A DNA stretch of 19,290 nucleotides, from contig CANIAV010000001.1 in the NCBI GenBank assembly GCA_947465365.1, positions 1-19,290 on the forward strand, in the 5' to 3' direction. This DNA comes from Actinomycetota bacterium (GTDB taxonomy: Bacteria; Actinomycetota; Actinomycetes; Nanopelagicales; Nanopelagicaceae). Positions 1,119 through 8,466 of this stretch are shown one piece after another. The notes beneath the pieces were generated by a model. The model searched no databases and was not told the origin of the DNA. It worked only from the letters and a program-made list of their open reading frames with translations. How positions within the stretch are numbered: the stretch's first letter is position 1; every line of letters starts with the position of its first letter. The position numbers and the translations under genes were made by a program.

Positions 1119-1400
1119 ATGTCAGTCCCAGAGATCAACCCAACTCACGATGTGATCGCAGATGGGTCGGCTACTCCTATCGAATTTACCTTTCGCGGCA
1201 AACGCTTTCGCATCCACGCTGTTCTCTCGCGCTGGTGTGAAGCAGGTGGCTGGTGGAACCGGGTTAGCGATGGCATCTATCGCCCTGATGATGGTGCGCG
1301 CGCTTTGTGGACCGTTGAAGCAGCACCTATCGGTGCGCTAAATACCTTTCAACTCGAACGCGATGAGATCACAGGTTCCTGGATCGTAAAACAAGTATGA
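1119..1400 (+). CDS. DUF6504 family protein, first gene of the SOS operon
   Basis: This 93-residue protein matches the small DUF6504 family seen beside translesion polymerase genes in Actinobacteria (recognised from memory). It has a beta-rich pattern: an IEFTFRGKRFRIHAVLSRW segment at residues 21-39, GGWW at 43-46, and a C-terminal LERDEITGSWIV segment that pairs with the WTVEA strand. There is no signal peptide or membrane segment. The biochemical role is unknown; its position as leader gene of a LexA-controlled operon with two polymerases suggests a part in damage tolerance. The ATG at 1119 has only a weak purine-rich stretch (GAGGCGG) upstream, but no better start exists before the conserved core. 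Seven bases separate its stop from dnaE2. Confidence 0.75.
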   Translation: MSVPEINPTHDVIADGSATPIEFTFRGKRFRIHAVLSRWCEAGGWWNRVSDGIYRPDDGARALWTVEAAPIGALNTFQLERDEITGSWIVKQV

Positions 1401-1407
1401 GTTAAAG

Positions 1408-4400
1408 ATGAGTTTTATACATTTACGAACATCAAGTGCCTTCTCACTTAAATATGGCACCACTCAACCACGTGATCTTGTCGAACGAGCTGCGCAATTT
1501 GAATCACCGGCGCTCGCACTTACTGATCGCGATGGTTTATCTGGTGCGATCCGTTTTGCTAGCGCATGTCTGGAATTCGGCATCGCTCCAATTATCGGAA
1601 TCAACTTAGCTATCGATTTATTGGCTGATCCAAATCTTAAAAGCGCACCAGTTAAAGATTTACCACGCGTGACTATCTTGGCCCATGGCGATGGGGGATG
1701 GCGCGCACTGGTGCGTTTATTAAGCGGACTTAACATGAACGCCGCTGATCGCACACCAGTTTTGACTTTAGATTTCTTACAACGCTTTAGCCAATATTCA
1801 ACGCAGCTGCATTTACTGCACGGCCCAGAATCACCAGTTAGTCAAGCCCTGACATTGCACCGCAGCGATATCGCACTTGAGATATTTAATAAGACTCGCT
1901 CGCTCTTCGGCGATCACGCTATAGATTGCGTATCGCACCTAGTTGCGGGCAATGGACCTTTCTCAACTGGGCATGCTGCCAGATCTCTTATCTTCGCCCG
2001 CGATCACGATATCGATGCGGTAATTACCAATGCGGTGCGGATGCGCGATGCCGCAGATGGGCCAGTTGCCGATATTTTAGATTGCGCCCGGCAATTAGTT
2101 CCGTTGCACCAACGCCATCTAGAACGCCGTAATGCCGAAGGTTATTTAAAATCTAACGATCAGATGGTTTCACTCGCTGCTGAAATCGCACGCGCCGCCG
2201 GAGAACGCACCCCACGTGATCTCTTAAATACAACCCGCAAATGGGCCGAACGCGCACTTCTTTCGCCACAACGCGATCTTGGTTTAGGCGGCATTCACTT
2301 ACCCGAGGCCCATGTAGTCGGCGCCGATTCGGCGAATGCAATGCGCACTTTGCTACGCACGCGCTGTGAATCCGGAATCAATTGGCGCTACAACGATTCC
2401 GCCACCATCAATAAAGCGCGTGCTCGTTTAGATGATGAGCTCGCTACCGTTGCAACTCTTGGGTATGAGCCATATTTTTTAACCGTTGCAGATATCACCG
2501 ATATGGCGCGGGGTAAAAATATTCGCGTGGCAGCTCGCGGCAGCGGTGCGGGTTCCTTGATCTGTCACTTGCTCGGAATTTCTGGCGTTGATCCGATGCA
2601 ACATGGTTTATTGATGGAGCGCTTCTGTTCACCGTTGCGCCGAGCGCTTCCTGATATCGATATAGATGTGGAATCTGCCCGGCGTTTAGAAATTTATGAC
2701 CTGGTCTTTAAGAGATATGGCGATACTGATTGGCAGTCCCCGCAAGCACTTTCGCGCTGCGCAACCGTTTCGATGATCGATACCTATCGTGCGCGCAATG
2801 CGATTCGCGATGTCGGTGCAGCACTTGGCTTGCCTGCGATGGAGATAGATCTAATCGCAAAATCCCTGCCACATGTGCGCGCCCGCAATATTGAGGCGAC
2901 CCTTAAATCACTTCCTGAACTTCGCTCACTTAATTTATCCGCACCGCTTACCATGATGGCAATTTCGCTGGCCCAACGTTTGGATGGTCTGCCCCGCCAT
3001 TTAGCGATGCATCCTTGCGCTGTTGTTCTATCTGATGCCGGTCTTTTAGATCGTGCGCCAGTTCAATTTAACGCCAGCGGTTATCCGATGGTCGAATTTG
3101 ATAAAGATGGCGTAGAAGAAATTGGTTTACTCAAATTAGATATCTTGGGTGTGCGGATGCAATCGACAATTGCCCATGCGGTGCACGAGATAAAACGCGT
3201 TGCCGATATTGATCTAGATATCGATGCCGTGCCACTTGATGACACCGCAACCTATGAGTTAATCCAATCAACGCGCACCTTAGGTATCTTCCAAGTCGAA
3301 AGCCCCGGACAACGCGAACTAGTCGGCAAGTTAGCGCCGAAAACTTTTAGCGATTTAATAATTGATATCTCACTCTTTCGTCCCGGGCCCGTTAAGAGCG
3401 ACATGATCCGACCATTTCTTAACGCGCGCCATGGCTGGACAAGTGCGCAGATAATCCACCCTGACCTGTATTCGATCTTGGCGCAGACCGAAGGAGTGGT
3501 GGTCTTTCACGAACAAGTTATCTCGATTATCGCAACGATGACCGGTATCTCACTTGCTGCCGCTGATGAGAAACGGCGGGCTTTAGGCAGCAAGGAAGGC
3601 CAACAAGAAGTCTGCGATTGGTTCTTTCCTGCCGCCACCGCCCGCGGTTATGAGCTGACCACAATTACCGAAATCTGGGATGTCCTTCGCGCCTTTGCCT
3701 CCTTTGGTTTCTGTAAAGCACATGCGGCAGCTTTCGCACTTCCGACATATCAATCTGCTTATTTAAAGACGCATTACCCGGCTGCATTTATTGCAGGTGT
3801 CTTAACCCATGATCCAGGTATGTATCCCAAACGTTTGATGATCGATGAAGCTCGCCAACTTGGTGTTGGTTTAGCACCGTTAGATATTAATTATTCAGGT
3901 AGCCAATACACGGTAGAGAAAAACGAGACGGGGCAAGACAGTGTGCGGATTGCACTTACCTCAGTCTCAGGAATTAGCGATAAGGAAGTAACCTCGATAA
4001 TCGCCGGTCGTCCTTATATTGACCTCGCTGATTTCTATCGCAGATCAGGTGCATCACATCCAGTTATCGAAACTTTAATTATGACTGGGGCCTTTGACCA
4101 AGTGCATTCTTTAAATGATGGAACTATCAACCATCGCGATTTATTGCTGCACTTATCTGATTTAACTCGCTCACCAGTTGCCACAGTTGCGGGATCACAG
4201 ATGGTCTTTGGCTTTGCACCTCCTGATGTTGCGGCAAGTGGCCTGCCTGCAATGGGGCCTGCGGAAAAGGTGCGCAATGAAGTAGAACGTTTAGGTATGG
4301 ATATCACCCACCATATGCTCGAGTTCTACGCCCCATTTCTAAATGCGATTGGTGCGGTTAAATCATCGGATCTACTTTCACTGCGATCACAAAGTGAAGT

Positions 4401-4692
4401 GTTAGTTGCCGGAATTAAAGTTGCGATGCAGACCCCACCTGTACGTTCGGGGCGGCGCGTTATCTTCTTAACTCTAGATGATGGTTATGGATGTACTGAT
4501 TCGACATTTTTTAGTGGCGCCCAAGAGGGTTTTGCTTCCACTCTCTACAGTTCATCCATATTGTTAGTCCGTGGCAAAACTCGCAGAACCGGTGATCGCG
4601 GTATCTCTATCAACGCCAGTGGTGCCTGGGACCTACGCGCCGCATATGAAAAATGGTCACGCCAATTAATACAGCAAGCGATCCAGAAATGA
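1408..4692 (+). CDS. dnaE2: Error-prone DNA polymerase III alpha subunit, DnaE2/ImuC type
   Basis: The protein has 1094 residues, in the DnaE2 range and shorter than replicative DnaE1. Domains in order are PHP (about 1-280), polymerase palm and fingers (about 300-800), helix-hairpin-helix (about 800-930) and an OB fold (about 985-1070). The palm carries PDIDID with D416 and D418, and the LLKLDILG stretch carries D578, matching the three catalytic aspartates of E. coli DnaE. The GSGAGS motif and FRPGP segment are intact. QMVFG at 931-935 looks like a beta-clamp binding motif. The PHP site is degenerate: HxH is H5-L-R7, and the usual TDH is TDR (R41), so PHP exonuclease activity is unlikely. 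DnaE2 enzymes extend past lesions and cause damage-induced mutation. The gene is under a LexA box. Its start lacks a strong Shine-Dalgarno and probably depends on coupling to the gene before it. Confidence 0.88.
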   Translation: MSFIHLRTSSAFSLKYGTTQPRDLVERAAQFESPALALTDRDGLSGAIRFASACLEFGIAPIIGINLAIDLLADPNLKSAPVKDLPRVTILAHGDGGWRALVRLLSGLNMNAADRTPVLTLDFLQRFSQYSTQLHLLHGPESPVSQALTLHRSDIALEIFNKTRSLFGDHAIDCVSHLVAGNGPFSTGHAARSLIFARDHDIDAVITNAVRMRDAADGPVADILDCARQLVPLHQRHLERRNAEGYLKSNDQMVSLAAEIARAAGERTPRDLLNTTRKWAERALLSPQRDLGLGGIHLPEAHVVGADSANAMRTLLRTRCESGINWRYNDSATINKARARLDDELATVATLGYEPYFLTVADITDMARGKNIRVAARGSGAGSLICHLLGISGVDPMQHGLLMERFCSPLRRALPDIDIDVESARRLEIYDLVFKRYGDTDWQSPQALSRCATVSMIDTYRARNAIRDVGAALGLPAMEIDLIAKSLPHVRARNIEATLKSLPELRSLNLSAPLTMMAISLAQRLDGLPRHLAMHPCAVVLSDAGLLDRAPVQFNASGYPMVEFDKDGVEEIGLLKLDILGVRMQSTIAHAVHEIKRVADIDLDIDAVPLDDTATYELIQSTRTLGIFQVESPGQRELVGKLAPKTFSDLIIDISLFRPGPVKSDMIRPFLNARHGWTSAQIIHPDLYSILAQTEGVVVFHEQVISIIATMTGISLAAADEKRRALGSKEGQQEVCDWFFPAATARGYELTTITEIWDVLRAFASFGFCKAHAAAFALPTYQSAYLKTHYPAAFIAGVLTHDPGMYPKRLMIDEARQLGVGLAPLDINYSGSQYTVEKNETGQDSVRIALTSVSGISDKEVTSIIAGRPYIDLADFYRRSGASHPVIETLIMTGAFDQVHSLNDGTINHRDLLLHLSDLTRSPVATVAGSQMVFGFAPPDVAASGLPAMGPAEKVRNEVERLGMDITHHMLEFYAPFLNAIGAVKSSDLLSLRSQSEVLVAGIKVAMQTPPVRSGRRVIFLTLDDGYGCTDSTFFSGAQEGFASTLYSSSILLVRGKTRRTGDRGISINASGAWDLRAAYEKWSRQLIQQAIQK

Positions 4693-5873
4693 CGCAGGCC
4701 ACGATTTTGCATGTAGATATGGATGCCTTCTATGCCTCAGTTGCTGAACTCGATCATCCAGAACTACGTGGCAAGGCAGTTGTTGTTGGTGCAGGCGCGC
4801 GCGGAGTTGTCTTATCTGCCAACTATGCGGCACGTAAATTTGGAATTCGCGCTGCCATGCCCGTTGGCCGCGCACAACGTATGGCGCCACAAGCGATCTT
4901 TATCGCACCCGATCACCATCGTTACTCTGAAATATCAGAACGCGTCATGCAAATCTTTGCTGCATATACACCGCTAGTTGAACCGATTTCACTCGATGAA
5001 GCATTTCTTGATGTAACAGGTGCGCGCAAACTACTTGGCACAGGTCGCGAGATCGCGACTGCTATCCGCGCCCGCGTTGAGAAAGAGGAAGGCATTACTT
5101 GTTCGGTGGGAATTGCGCCCTCCAAATTTATCGCCAAGTTAGCCTCACAACACTGCAAACCAAATGGCATGCTCGAGATAACCGCTGATCGCATCCTTAC
5201 CTTCTTGCATCCGCTTCCGGTTGGTGCAATCTGGGGGGTCGGTCTTAAGACAGCAGAACAGCTTGAAAGACTGGGTTTACATACCGTTGCCGATATCGCA
5301 AATACTCCACGCGCTACTTTAATTCGCGCACTCGGAGACGCTGCTGGTGCCTCTCTTTATGAACTTGCCTGGGGGCGCGACTATCGCGATGTGACACCTG
5401 AGGAACCAGATAAAAGTATTTCATCGGCTGAAACTTTTCCCAGTGATCTAGATGATCCAACTGAAATCTTGCAAGAGTTCCTGCGGATGACGGAAAGATC
5501 AACGGCGCGTTTGCGTGAGAAAGGTTTATTTGCCAAGACGATTTCAATCAAGGTGCGCTTTGCAGATTTCTCAACTATCAATCGCTCTAAGACTTTGCCG
5601 CTGCCAATTGACAGTACCCACGAAGTTTATGAAGTTGTTAAATCACTTTATCTAGCGTTAAAGATAGAACGAGCACGTCTGCGTTTAGTCGGAGTCTCAC
5701 TTGAGAATTTGCAGGAAGATTCACCTGAACAACTCGTCCTGGGAGCGCGTGAAAAGGGTTGGCGCGATGCTGAAAGTGCGATTGATCAGGCCAAAGCGCG
5801 CTTTGGACGGGGCAGCGTTCGCCCGGGGCGTTTGATCAAACCAGGGGATGAGCCAGAACATCACGGGGATTAA
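4689..5873 (+). CDS. dinB: DNA polymerase IV (Y-family translesion polymerase)
   Basis: From the ATG at 4689 the protein has 394 residues. This start overlaps the dnaE2 stop as ATGA and gives the usual N-terminus leading into HVDMDAFYASV; an earlier in-frame ATG at 4653 would add 12 non-conserved residues. Metal ligands D10, D103 and E104 (SLDEAFLDVT) are all present, and Y15 sits at the steric gate position that excludes ribonucleotides. The palm motif SVGIAPSKFIAKLAS and a helix-hairpin-helix (GAIWGVGLKTAEQL) follow, then the little-finger domain. QLVLG at 348-352 may bind the beta clamp. The enzyme should bypass lesions and is predicted to be LexA-controlled through the shared operon. It is a catalytically competent polymerase, not an ImuB-type inactive one. 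Confidence 0.93.
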   Translation: MTQATILHVDMDAFYASVAELDHPELRGKAVVVGAGARGVVLSANYAARKFGIRAAMPVGRAQRMAPQAIFIAPDHHRYSEISERVMQIFAAYTPLVEPISLDEAFLDVTGARKLLGTGREIATAIRARVEKEEGITCSVGIAPSKFIAKLASQHCKPNGMLEITADRILTFLHPLPVGAIWGVGLKTAEQLERLGLHTVADIANTPRATLIRALGDAAGASLYELAWGRDYRDVTPEEPDKSISSAETFPSDLDDPTEILQEFLRMTERSTARLREKGLFAKTISIKVRFADFSTINRSKTLPLPIDSTHEVYEVVKSLYLALKIERARLRLVGVSLENLQEDSPEQLVLGAREKGWRDAESAIDQAKARFGRGSVRPGRLIKPGDEPEHHGD

Positions 5874-5916
5874 CTATCAACTAGCCCAGAAGGCAAAGTT
5901 GTTCTATTGTGGGGAT

Positions 5917-6285
5917 ATGGCTCTATCTGATCGCGAACAACGCCTATTAGCTGAGATGGAAGAGGCGCTCTCTGCCGATGATCCACGTCTGGTCTCGACT
6001 TTAAACGGCACATCTACTCGCTTTAGCGCCTCAATCGGTATCGCCATCGCCGCAATTCTGGGTGGCTTCTCAATTCTCTTTGCCGGACTTATCGCTCAGC
6101 TGACCTTGGTTGGAGTAGGTGGCTTTCTCGTCGCCCTCGTAGGCGTAATCCTGCTTATCAATGGCCTGACCAAGCGCACATCAAAGTTTGGCCAGGGTGG
6201 CTCGCCAAAGCGCGCTCGCCGCTCATTTACCCAAGGCTTTACCAAAGGGATGGAAGATCGCTGGGATCAGCGCAATAACGGCTAA
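5917..6285 (+). CDS. DUF3040 small membrane protein
   Basis: The protein has 122 residues from the ATG at 5917, giving the DUF3040 N-terminus (MALSDREQRLLAEMEEAL, then the DDPR stretch). Two membrane helices lie near residues 37-60 and 62-84, followed by a basic, arginine- and lysine-rich C-terminal tail. Its function is unknown. This family often lies between dinB and mraZ in Actinobacteria (from memory). A longer in-frame reading begins at 5848 inside dinB but adds residues unlike the family. A TATTGT 6 bp before the ATG could be a -10 element of a leaderless transcript; otherwise the gene is the tail of the SOS operon, 43 bases after dinB. A strong terminator follows. Confidence 0.83.
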   Translation: MALSDREQRLLAEMEEALSADDPRLVSTLNGTSTRFSASIGIAIAAILGGFSILFAGLIAQLTLVGVGGFLVALVGVILLINGLTKRTSKFGQGGSPKRARRSFTQGFTKGMEDRWDQRNNG

Positions 6286-6303
6286 ATCCAGTTAAACCAT
6301 CTT

Positions 6304-6331
6304 GCCCTCGCCGTTGGCGGGGGCTTTTTTT
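6304..6331 (+). terminator. Intrinsic terminator ending the dnaE2-dinB-DUF3040 unit
   Basis: Arms GCCCTCGCC (6304-6312) and GGCGGGGGC (6316-6324) form a 9-bp stem with one G-U pair and a GTT loop, followed directly by seven T. It isolates the SOS operon from the dcw cluster. Confidence 0.9.
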
Positions 6332-6340
6332 ATACCCAAA

Positions 6341-6420
6341 TTAGGTGGGGAGGACTGGGGTGCAGGCGGGAGATTAGTGGCGAAAGGTGGTTGAAAAAGG
6401 AGGAAAGTGGAGTAAAGTGG
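6341..6420 (+). repeat. Array of eight phased 10-bp MraZ-box-like repeats
   Basis: Eight consecutive 10-bp units each end in a G-rich pentamer: TGGGG / TGGGG / GCGGG / AGTGG / GGTGG / AAAGG / AGTGG / AGTGG. The 5-bp gaps between pentamers match the spacing of E. coli MraZ boxes (TGGGN repeated with 5-nt spacers), and the last two units contain AAAGTGG, as in mollicute MraZ boxes. The array lies just upstream of mraZ and overlaps the predicted promoter, so autoregulation by the MraZ ring is likely. The match is read by eye; binding is inferred. Confidence 0.75.
6391..6418 (+). promoter_or_regulatory. Predicted mraZ/dcw promoter inside the repeat array
   Basis: TTGAAA (6391-6396) and TAAAGT (6413-6418) are separated by 16 bp. 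Transcription would start near 6425, 45 nt before the mraZ ATG. Both hexamers lie within the last three MraZ-box-like units, so MraZ binding would occlude polymerase. Confidence 0.5.
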
Positions 6421-6469
6421 GGGATTAAGCGGGTTTTCCGCCTTGGCACCTGGGGAAGGGGGCCGCAAA

Positions 6470-6901
6470 ATGTTTCTCGGCACCCACGAGCCACGCCTTG
6501 ATGAAAAGGGCCGCCTCATCCTTCCCGCGAAATTTCGCGAAGAGCTCTCTGCTGGATTGGTAATTACCAAGGGGCAAGAGCGTTGTTTATATGTCTTCCC
6601 ATCGTCTGAATTTGCAACGATTACCGAAACTCTGCGCCAAGCACCTGTTACATCAAAGAATGCGCGCGATTACATGCGCGTGATGTTCGCCGGCGCACAC
6701 GATGAAATTCCAGATCGCCAAGGTCGCGTAACTATTCCTGCAGGCCTTCGCACATATGCCGGACTTGAAAAAGATTGCGTTGTTATCGGTGCAAATACCC
6801 GCGTTGAAATTTGGGATAACGCCGCTTGGAATACATATCTAACTGATCGTGAAAAAGGTTTCTCTGATGTATCTGAGGAGATCTTCCCCGGCCTCTTCTA
6901 G
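6470..6901 (+). CDS. mraZ: Transcriptional regulator MraZ
   Basis: The protein has 143 residues, the standard MraZ length, and is made of two AbrB-type half-domains with the DxxGR signatures at 11-15 (DEKGR) and 82-86 (DRQGR), each followed by a beta strand and proline. MraZ assembles into rings and binds direct repeats in front of its own gene to control the dcw cluster. The start at 6470 gives the conserved [12 protein letters not shown]-terminus and has a GGAAGGGGG stretch upstream; a TTG at 6443 would only add nine non-conserved residues. It is the first gene of the cluster, 139 bp after the terminator of the SOS operon. A structured RNA separates it from rsmH. Confidence 0.95.
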
Positions 6902-7089: not shown

Positions 7090-8046
7090 ATGAACGATGC
7101 AAGTACGCAACATATATCTGTAATGCTAGATCGTTGCATTGAGCTACTTTCCCCAACGGTTTTATTAAATGAAAAACCAGTCATTGTGGATTGCACACTT
7201 GGTTTAGGTGGACACACTGAAGCTCTACTTGAAAAATTTCCCACATTAACTGTTATCGGAATCGATCGTGATCAAATTGCCCTAGAACGTGCCGGCGCAC
7301 GATTGGCTCGCTTTGGTGATCGCTTTAAGAGCGCACACGCCGTCTTTGATGAAATCGGCGAAGTTGTTACATCGCTTGGTTTGAAAGAAGTAAATGGCGT
7401 CTTATTTGATCTCGGTGTTTCTTCAATTCAATTAGATGAAGTAGAACGTGGATTCTCATATTCGCAAGATGCCCCACTTGATATGCGGATGGATCGCAGC
7501 CGGGGGATTACCGCATCAGAGATAGTAAATACCTACGCACCTGGTGCGCTGGTCAAGATTCTGCGCACCTTTGGCGAGGAAAAGTTTGCAACTCGAATCG
7601 TTGAAAATATCGTTAAAGCGCGCGCTAAGGCTCCTCTTAACTCAACCCAAGAACTCGCCACCTTGGTTAAAGAGAGTATTCCTGCCGCAACCCGTCGTAC
7701 TGGTGGCAATCCGGCAAAGCGCACCTTCCAAGCCTTACGTATTGAAGCAAATGATGAACTTGGTGCGATCACACGCGCTCTGCCAATAGCACTTGATCTA
7801 ATCGCAGTCGGTGGACGCGTTGTCGTTCTCTCATTCCAGTCACTAGAAGATCGCATCGTTAAAGAGATCTTTGTGGACCGATCCACATCTAAGAGCCCAC
7901 GTAAATTGCCAGTGGACCTTCCCGAATTCGCCGCCAAATTTGCCATGGTTTCAAAATCTGGTGAAACACCAACAGATCAAGAGTTAGCTGCTAATCCGCG
8001 GTCGGCTTCAGTACGTCTGCGCGCAATTGAAAAGGTGGCGGCATAA
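7090..8046 (+). CDS. rsmH: 16S rRNA (cytosine-1402 N4) methyltransferase RsmH
   Basis: The protein has 318 residues, the usual size. The SAM-binding motif DCTLGLGGHTEALL is at 34-47 and GIDRDQIAL at 57-65. VLFDLGVSSIQLDEVERGFSY (from 104), PLDMRMD (129-135), the RTFQALRIEAND segment at 211-222 and SFQSLEDRIVK (248-258) are RsmH hallmarks. It N4-methylates C1402 of 16S rRNA in the ribosomal P site. Its place at the head of the dcw cluster is conserved in bacteria, though it is not a wall enzyme. The start at 7090 follows a GGGGGAG Shine-Dalgarno. The structured leader upstream probably affects its expression. The ftsL-like gene begins at the base after its stop. Confidence 0.95.
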   Translation: MNDASTQHISVMLDRCIELLSPTVLLNEKPVIVDCTLGLGGHTEALLEKFPTLTVIGIDRDQIALERAGARLARFGDRFKSAHAVFDEIGEVVTSLGLKEVNGVLFDLGVSSIQLDEVERGFSYSQDAPLDMRMDRSRGITASEIVNTYAPGALVKILRTFGEEKFATRIVENIVKARAKAPLNSTQELATLVKESIPAATRRTGGNPAKRTFQALRIEANDELGAITRALPIALDLIAVGGRVVVLSFQSLEDRIVKEIFVDRSTSKSPRKLPVDLPEFAAKFAMVSKSGETPTDQELAANPRSASVRLRAIEKVAA

Positions 8047-8466
8047 ATGGCGCTATTGAATTCAGCAGCTACCAAAACATCTCGGGTACCCCGCCAGAAG
8101 TTAACTGAAAAATCTGCTGAAGTATTTTTAAAGTTAGTTCCCAACGTGTCTGAAGGTGCGCAAGCAACTCACCGCTTCTTCGCCACCTTCTTATCTTCAG
8201 TTGCCGCAATTGGGCTGCTAATTCTGCTGGCGGTCAACATTCTTCTGGCACAGGATGCCTTCACCCTCTCTGGTTTAAAGGCGGAAGCAAAGATTGTGGC
8301 AGATCAACGGGAAGCAATTAACCGTCAAATAGAGGCGGTCTCTTCACCTGAAGCGTTAGCTGCCAAAGCGCAAGCATTGGGAATGCGCCCTTCAGAGTCA
8401 CCTGTTTTTCTAAATCTGGATTCACAGGCGCAAGCGCTAGCAAATGGAGAAATCAAACGTGGGTAA
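8047..8466 (+). CDS. ftsL: FtsL-like divisome protein
   Basis: The protein has 139 residues with a basic cytoplasmic N-terminus (about 1-44), one membrane helix (about 45-68) ending in LLAQDAF, and an extracytoplasmic coiled coil (about 76-112) ending in SSPEALAAKAQALGM. This layout and the SPEALAxxAxxLGM pattern are typical of actinobacterial FtsL/septum formation initiator proteins between rsmH and ftsI. By analogy it should form the FtsQLB scaffold and activate FtsW-FtsI at the septum. FtsL sequences diverge strongly, so the name rests on topology and position as well as motif. The ATG follows the rsmH stop with no spacer; the 3' end overlaps ftsI. Confidence 0.8.
   Translation: MALLNSAATKTSRVPRQKLTEKSAEVFLKLVPNVSEGAQATHRFFATFLSSVAAIGLLILLAVNILLAQDAFTLSGLKAEAKIVADQREAINRQIEAVSSPEALAAKAQALGMRPSESPVFLNLDSQAQALANGEIKRG
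8446..8449 (+). promoter_or_regulatory. Ribosome binding site deciding the ftsI start
   Basis: GGAG lies 9 nt before the GTG at 8459 and inside the ftsL coding end. An alternative ATG at 8444 overlaps this element and has no Shine-Dalgarno of its own, so GTG 8459 is the better start. Confidence 0.55.

Follow-up and report, generated by a model that had tools for sequence, protein, structure and literature searches.

The 80 bp at 6341-6420 on the forward strand of the window, the whole 19,290-bp stretch of DNA that was analysed, probably form an extended autoregulatory operator for MraZ in front of the dcw cluster, as judged from position, phase and consensus. Eight 10-bp units follow each other in a row and GG closes every one of them (8/8), bearing out the proposal of eight consecutive units before mraZ made in an earlier, sequence-only reading of this DNA. 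About 50 bp separate the end of the array from the mraZ start (Table 1). In what we regard as the best reading, a five-box core (6371-6420) lies over the predicted -35/-10 pair, with three weaker boxes (6341-6370) upstream.

The protein encoded downstream carries the marks of the MraZ family, namely a model score above the cut-off, two halves and the D..GR loops (D11-R15 and D82-R86), which we take to have a DNA-binding role and which are invariant in all 21 of the 21 aligned sequences. Among its nearest named relatives are the proteins of Actinobacteria bacterium IMCC26103 (98% identity) and Candidatus Planktophila lacus (97%), from which we infer that the host is Candidatus Planktophila or very close kin; the protein search for deeper MraZ relatives returned only close ones among the matches listed. 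Solved structures of MraZ homologues exist, and an AlphaFold single-chain model built from 21 close sequences was too poor to use (mean pLDDT 47.8). Further cell-wall genes follow ftsL, judged by ORF content. On the other side of the array, the upstream gene (5848-6285) has its best match in the SCO2097 family, under the model cut-off, and the T-run of a terminator-like hairpin ends about 10 bases before the first unit. Further upstream, 1119-5873 encodes a DUF6504 protein, a DNA polymerase III alpha subunit (1094 aa) and an overlapping Y-family DNA polymerase, a gene group that looks like a mutagenesis cassette adjoining the division cluster.

Table 1. Features at and around the GG array. Offsets are relative to the GTGG at 6417, box scores are in-phase PWM scores, and counts of loci refer to the same genus unless stated otherwise.
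Feature	Position	Strand	Offset	Box score (bits)	Basis and conservation
Terminator-like hairpin with T-run	6304-6324	+			Scan, count within chance range; after the upstream gene
Box unit 1, TTAGGTGGGG	6341-6350	+	-70	-4.1 (4.8 with a shift of 2)	GTGG at 6345, 2 bp early; GG in 45/56
Box unit 2, AGGACTGGGG	6351-6360	+	-60	3.1	GG in 50/56
Box unit 3, TGCAGGCGGG, weak	6361-6370	+	-50	-0.4	GG in 50/56
Box unit 4, AGATTAGTGG, start of conserved core	6371-6380	+	-40	4.5	GG in 56/57, and in 100% of other family loci
Box unit 5, CGAAAGGTGG	6381-6390	+	-30	0.9	GG in 57/57
Box unit 6, TTGAAAAAGG, degenerate	6391-6400	+	-20	-0.8	Ends in AAGG; holds -35 hexamer; GG in 57/57
Predicted -35 hexamer, TTGAAA	6391-6396	+			Scan; TTGAAA in 34/57, TGTAAA in 16/57
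Box unit 7, AGGAAAGTGG	6401-6410	+	-10	8.6	Perfect AAAGTGG; GG in 57/57, GTGG in 46/57
Box unit 8, AGTAAAGTGG	6411-6420	+	0	8.6	Perfect AAAGTGG; holds -10 hexamer; GTGG in 57/57 (loci anchored on GTGG here)
Predicted -10 hexamer, TAAAGT	6413-6418	+			Scan; 57/57
Possible 4-bp hairpin GCGG-GTTTT-CCGC, start of mraZ leader	6429-6441	+			Read from sequence; script ranked another pairing first
G-rich Shine-Dalgarno region	6453-6462	+			Sequence; very G-rich over 6452-6463 (TGGGGAAGGGGG), common to many loci
mraZ, 143 aa, first gene of dcw cluster	6470-6901	+			TIGR00242 132.4 bits; PF02381 in two stretches; ORFs
rsmH	at 7090				Profile model match, downstream of mraZ
ftsL	at 8047				Profile model match, downstream of mraZ

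GG units in 10-bp phase over the predicted promoter

The chain of eight GG at a spacing of 10 occurs a single time in the 19,290 bp with both strands scanned, and among GG chains at periods 6 to 15 in the whole window none besides the array is longer than four. Dinucleotide shuffles reached eight in 1/5000 cases for 6333-6469 and in 0/5000 for 6333-6425. Across 101 genus and family loci (655,006 bases with both strands counted and 13 stretches included twice), all 100 chains of at least five units directly precede mraZ on the mraZ strand. Tandem Repeats Finder returned only 2.6 copies (6399-6424), and the peaks of a Fourier scan, around 10.0-10.5 bp, are too broad to tell 10.0 from 10.5.

The units had been described as ending in G-rich motifs of the GTGG or TGGGG type, a description that holds for GG throughout and for the full GTGG in part: strict in-phase GTGG is present in 4/8 units (6377, 6387, 6407 and 6417), unit 6 departs from it and units 1-3 are G-runs. 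Requiring G/T before GG, in frame with GTGG, leaves a strict 10-bp chain of just 2 in the window, a length that 4122/5000 shuffles of 6333-6469 and 3302/5000 of 6333-6425 reach, so that the regular element is GG and not the full GTGG.

Box quality was scored with a PWM built from boxes of other class families (67 of their 72 loci; Table 1). The highest-scoring units, the 8.6-bit AAAGTGG copies, sit over the promoter spacer and the -10 hexamer, and the upstream TGGGG units are weak and variable. This is the reverse of the affinity gradient drawn in the sequence-only reading, with strong anchoring sites upstream and weak sites over the promoter; caution is due because the hexamers of the promoter fall inside units 6 and 8. 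Measured against the Mollicutes consensus AAAGTGK in phase, units 7 and 8 match at 7/7 bases, unit 5 at 6 and the other five at 3-5. In same-genus loci the GTGG of upstream units 1-3 often lies 1-2 bp early, and the genus mean scores at -70, -60 and -50 (-5.1, -2.9 and -4.1 bits) are above the off-phase mean of -11.7.

As had been proposed, the MraZ-box-like direct repeats overlap the predicted promoter, its hexamers lying within units 6 and 8. The -35/-10 pair (spacer 16, 9/12 matches) is within chance, with 2 pairs found against a shuffle mean of 1.0 (sd 0.9), and the prediction is credited because TAAAGT is kept in every same-genus locus.

A possible hairpin opens the mraZ leader near the expected start of transcription, as placed from the sequence. 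Many same-genus loci have a hairpin at the leader start with other loops, and in several sister genera a leader hairpin with a GGGG loop follows the last box, its stem varying with pairing kept (e.g. L077, L081, L092, L095, L105 and L115). A leader stem of at least five pairs was counted in 27/38 loci of three genus groups and in 23/7600 mononucleotide shuffles of the same leaders; it was also counted in 5/57 same-genus loci, where it corresponds to the Shine-Dalgarno region, and in none of genera g18 and g19. A search of 6250-6620 against Rfam gave three chance-level matches, all far under the gathering scores.

Conservation of the array in genus, family and class

The sequence-only reading had proposed comparing the mraZ upstream regions of relatives for period and unit number, and had named a lack of periodic conservation as evidence against itself. 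Such a lack was not what we saw. In 57 loci from 61 same-genus genomes, aligned by their GTGG corresponding to 6417, with GG counted per offset, GG occurs at offsets -70 to 0 in 80, 89, 89, 98, 100, 100, 100 and 100% of the 56-57 loci reaching there, against a mean of 18% at the remaining offsets. The 10-bp period is kept and the number usually so, without being fixed at eight: counted from the anchor, eight units are in step in 38 of the 57 loci, nine in 3, seven in 9, five in 6 (including one truncated where its contig stops) and four in 1. In 56 loci of other family genera (59 genomes), the five-unit core has GG without exception, and upstream of it GG reaches 35, 67 and 53%; five to seven units are found in 43/56 of these sister-genus loci. 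Because promoter function constrains the core as well, not all of its conservation can be credited to MraZ.

Upstream of the core, GG keeps its phase even among 14 representatives of less than 75% identity (64, 79 and 79%, then 100%, against 16% at other offsets). Per-column information in 35 representatives is highest at the G runs, with maxima 10 bp apart (upstream at -69/-67, -59/-57 and -49/-47), and is low in the drifting upstream spacers, and composition-matched shuffles of the genus loci reach a chain of 6 in 0.2% and nothing longer. These observations argue against a plain four- or five-box MraZ operator in which units 1-3 would be a G-rich tract without a binding role. We regard that reading as possible, if on the unlikely side, since units 1-3 are degenerate and partly off phase, 7/57 same-genus loci have no continuous upstream array, genus g19 of the family has just five units in step in 6/6 loci, and the genus chain is short under the full-box rule.

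For the class, the longest strict GG chain within the 200 bases preceding mraZ was taken in 72 loci of other families. Its median is 5 (range 3-8), with 7 or 8 units in step in 17/72, so that the array length seen here is not unique; shuffles of these loci gave a chain of 6 in 0.3% and nothing longer, and outside the class the median is 3, taken over 29 loci that comprise only the best-scoring ones. Long GG arrays are commoner in the genus than in the class, yet not unique to the genus. Under the stricter rule, which asks for G/T before GG in frame, the chain is 2 long in 42/57 same-genus loci, where the class median is 5; if spacings may vary from 9 to 12, the medians become 4 for the genus and 5 for the class. 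Units in step are more numerous in the genus and units are fuller in the class; by full boxes the genus operator is no longer than that of the class, and these stricter-rule counts weigh against the reading as an extended operator.

When 16 class loci were compared by offset, GG stood at -20, -10, 0 and +10 in 14, 16, 16 and 13 of them, and GTGG in 12, 15, 16 and 9. At +10, GG is present in fewer than a quarter of the same-genus loci and in 4/6 loci of genus g19. With the +10 box present in the class and gone in the genus, and GG units added upstream, the operator of this streamlined freshwater genus appears to have shifted upstream and lengthened relative to a promoter that stayed in place. 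Elsewhere, mraZ was unmatched in all 12 genomes of a large-genome genus (g30, family f19) and matched in 135/136 of the others searched; the gene seems to have been lost in the g30 lineage.

Genome scans with the five-box core pattern (at most 2 mismatches) gave one match per genome in 45 of 61 family genomes, and the reversed pattern gave none in the 61 scanned. In 42 of the 45, the genomes that the comparison covered, the match fits the place of mraZ; 16/61 had no match, partly as the core there diverges further from the pattern. An exact-spaced three-box GTGG pattern with 1 mismatch allowed found nothing in the host's own genome, because unit 6 reads AAGG. A looser three-box pattern, with at most 2 mismatches, gave 15 scattered matches away from mraZ in 41 same-genus genomes (a hand count, excluding matches at or much like the mraZ core) against 8 for the reversed control. 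One of these matches, in genome G368, is a zero-mismatch three-box GTGG array in 10-bp steps; it lies in a spacer flanked by open frames on the small contig C172 (locus L324, 2,142 bases), where mraZ gave no match. This site may be a second MraZ target, the end of a foreign contig or a product of chance.

Proposed repression and competing readings

MraZ is described as a repressor of its own operon that binds direct repeats with a GTG core (PMC8475190, PMC5282649 and PMC7761207, in the portions of text available). On the reading as an extended operator, MraZ from the gene downstream would bind the GTGG/AAAGTGG boxes on one helix face, in 10-bp steps. Seated on the five core boxes, from upstream of -35 to -10, it would block RNA polymerase; since the core covers -35 to -10, occlusion of the polymerase is the simplest reading, and it would limit the expression of mraZ itself and of the division genes. 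The three weak upstream boxes most likely add avidity or space for a second ring. With one ring seated on the strong boxes of the promoter, the weak boxes upstream may be gripped by adjacent subunits or by another ring, and occupancy of these weak boxes would render repression tighter and steeper with MraZ level.

The sequence-only reading, noting that MraZ rings are octamers or dodecamers depending on the species, had suggested that eight copies would match one box per subunit of an octamer and wrap about 80 bp. Taken further, all eight boxes would make one turn around a single ring. For Planktophila, this would mean a single octamer in a nucleosome-like turn that includes the promoter, with strong boxes nucleating and weak upstream boxes closing the wrap, in a histone-like repressor complex. 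A length of 80 bp is close to one nucleosomal turn, so that a single wrapped octamer is geometrically appealing; eight is the commonest unit count in the genus, and A/T-rich steps lie opposite G-G steps in the core, as in bent DNA, an opposition that weakens in the upstream half of the array. MraZ octamers are named in the available text of PMC7761207 and PMC5282649. The one-box-per-subunit assignment is possible and found no support: loci of the genus have anything between 4 and 9 units, the medians elsewhere are lower (5 for other families of the class, 3 for other classes), and PMC5282649, in the part at hand, gives the core site of Mollicutes three repeats and says, in ambiguous wording, that a single MraZ octamer binds the related HsdC motif, all of which speak against a strict rule. 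We consider both the octamer wrap and its Planktophila version improbable.

Control of mraZ by a G-quadruplex, which the available part of PMC11796246 reports for S. aureus, is very hard to credit for this array. The region is 43-45% G on one strand, with two-tetrad motifs at 6344 and 6445, and G3+ four-tract motifs occur in 23/57 same-genus loci; against this, the window has no such motif even with 12-base loops, 0/16 other class loci have one, and a quadruplex does not need the 10-bp phase. The G-rich tract before S. aureus mraZ that this source calls a G-quadruplex may itself partly correspond to MraZ boxes. An array for some other regulator is just as improbable, e.g. MtrA, for which control of mraZ through promoter binding is reported in the actinobacterium Dietzia (PMC9602371, as far as its text was available), given that the units match the MraZ consensus, precede mraZ and did not turn up as a recurrent array at other sites in the genomes scanned.

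The literature searched yielded no description of an eight-box MraZ operator and nothing on mraZ together with Planktophila. Its described MraZ sites have three or four repeats, against which the eight units are longer, as the sequence-only reading had stated, and how the ring protein reads its boxes is unsettled there. Eight in-phase units here and relatives with 3 to 9 offer a natural dosage series for ring number and DNA wrapping.

Comparison with known MraZ sites

The Mollicutes MraZ site is given as (AAAGTGK N3)3 in the available text of PMC5282649. It resembles the present array in its AAAGTGG units, 10-bp steps and place at the mraZ promoter, and units 7 and 8 match it perfectly; it differs in having three repeats against eight, of which five here retain 3-5 of the seven consensus bases and one retains 6. 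E. coli K-12, used as a positive control with the same counts, shows GTGGG three times in 10-bp steps, with one further GG in the same phase. Its mraZ operator shares with the array direct GTGGG repeats at exactly 10 bp on the sense strand, close before mraZ, whereas its three boxes are said to lie downstream of -10 (PMC7761207, in part) and the eight units here end at -10. According to the same portion of that paper, MraZ binding to a fragment of the Burkholderia cenocepacia dcw promoter has been shown; that promoter likewise has heptamer direct repeats with 3-base spacers, but its four repeats lie downstream of -10. In other families of the class, mraZ has a promoter with the same -35/-10 frame and the same boxes; theirs stand mainly at -20, -10, 0 and +10 with fuller GTGG, whereas the genus is without the +10 box and has GG units added to -70.
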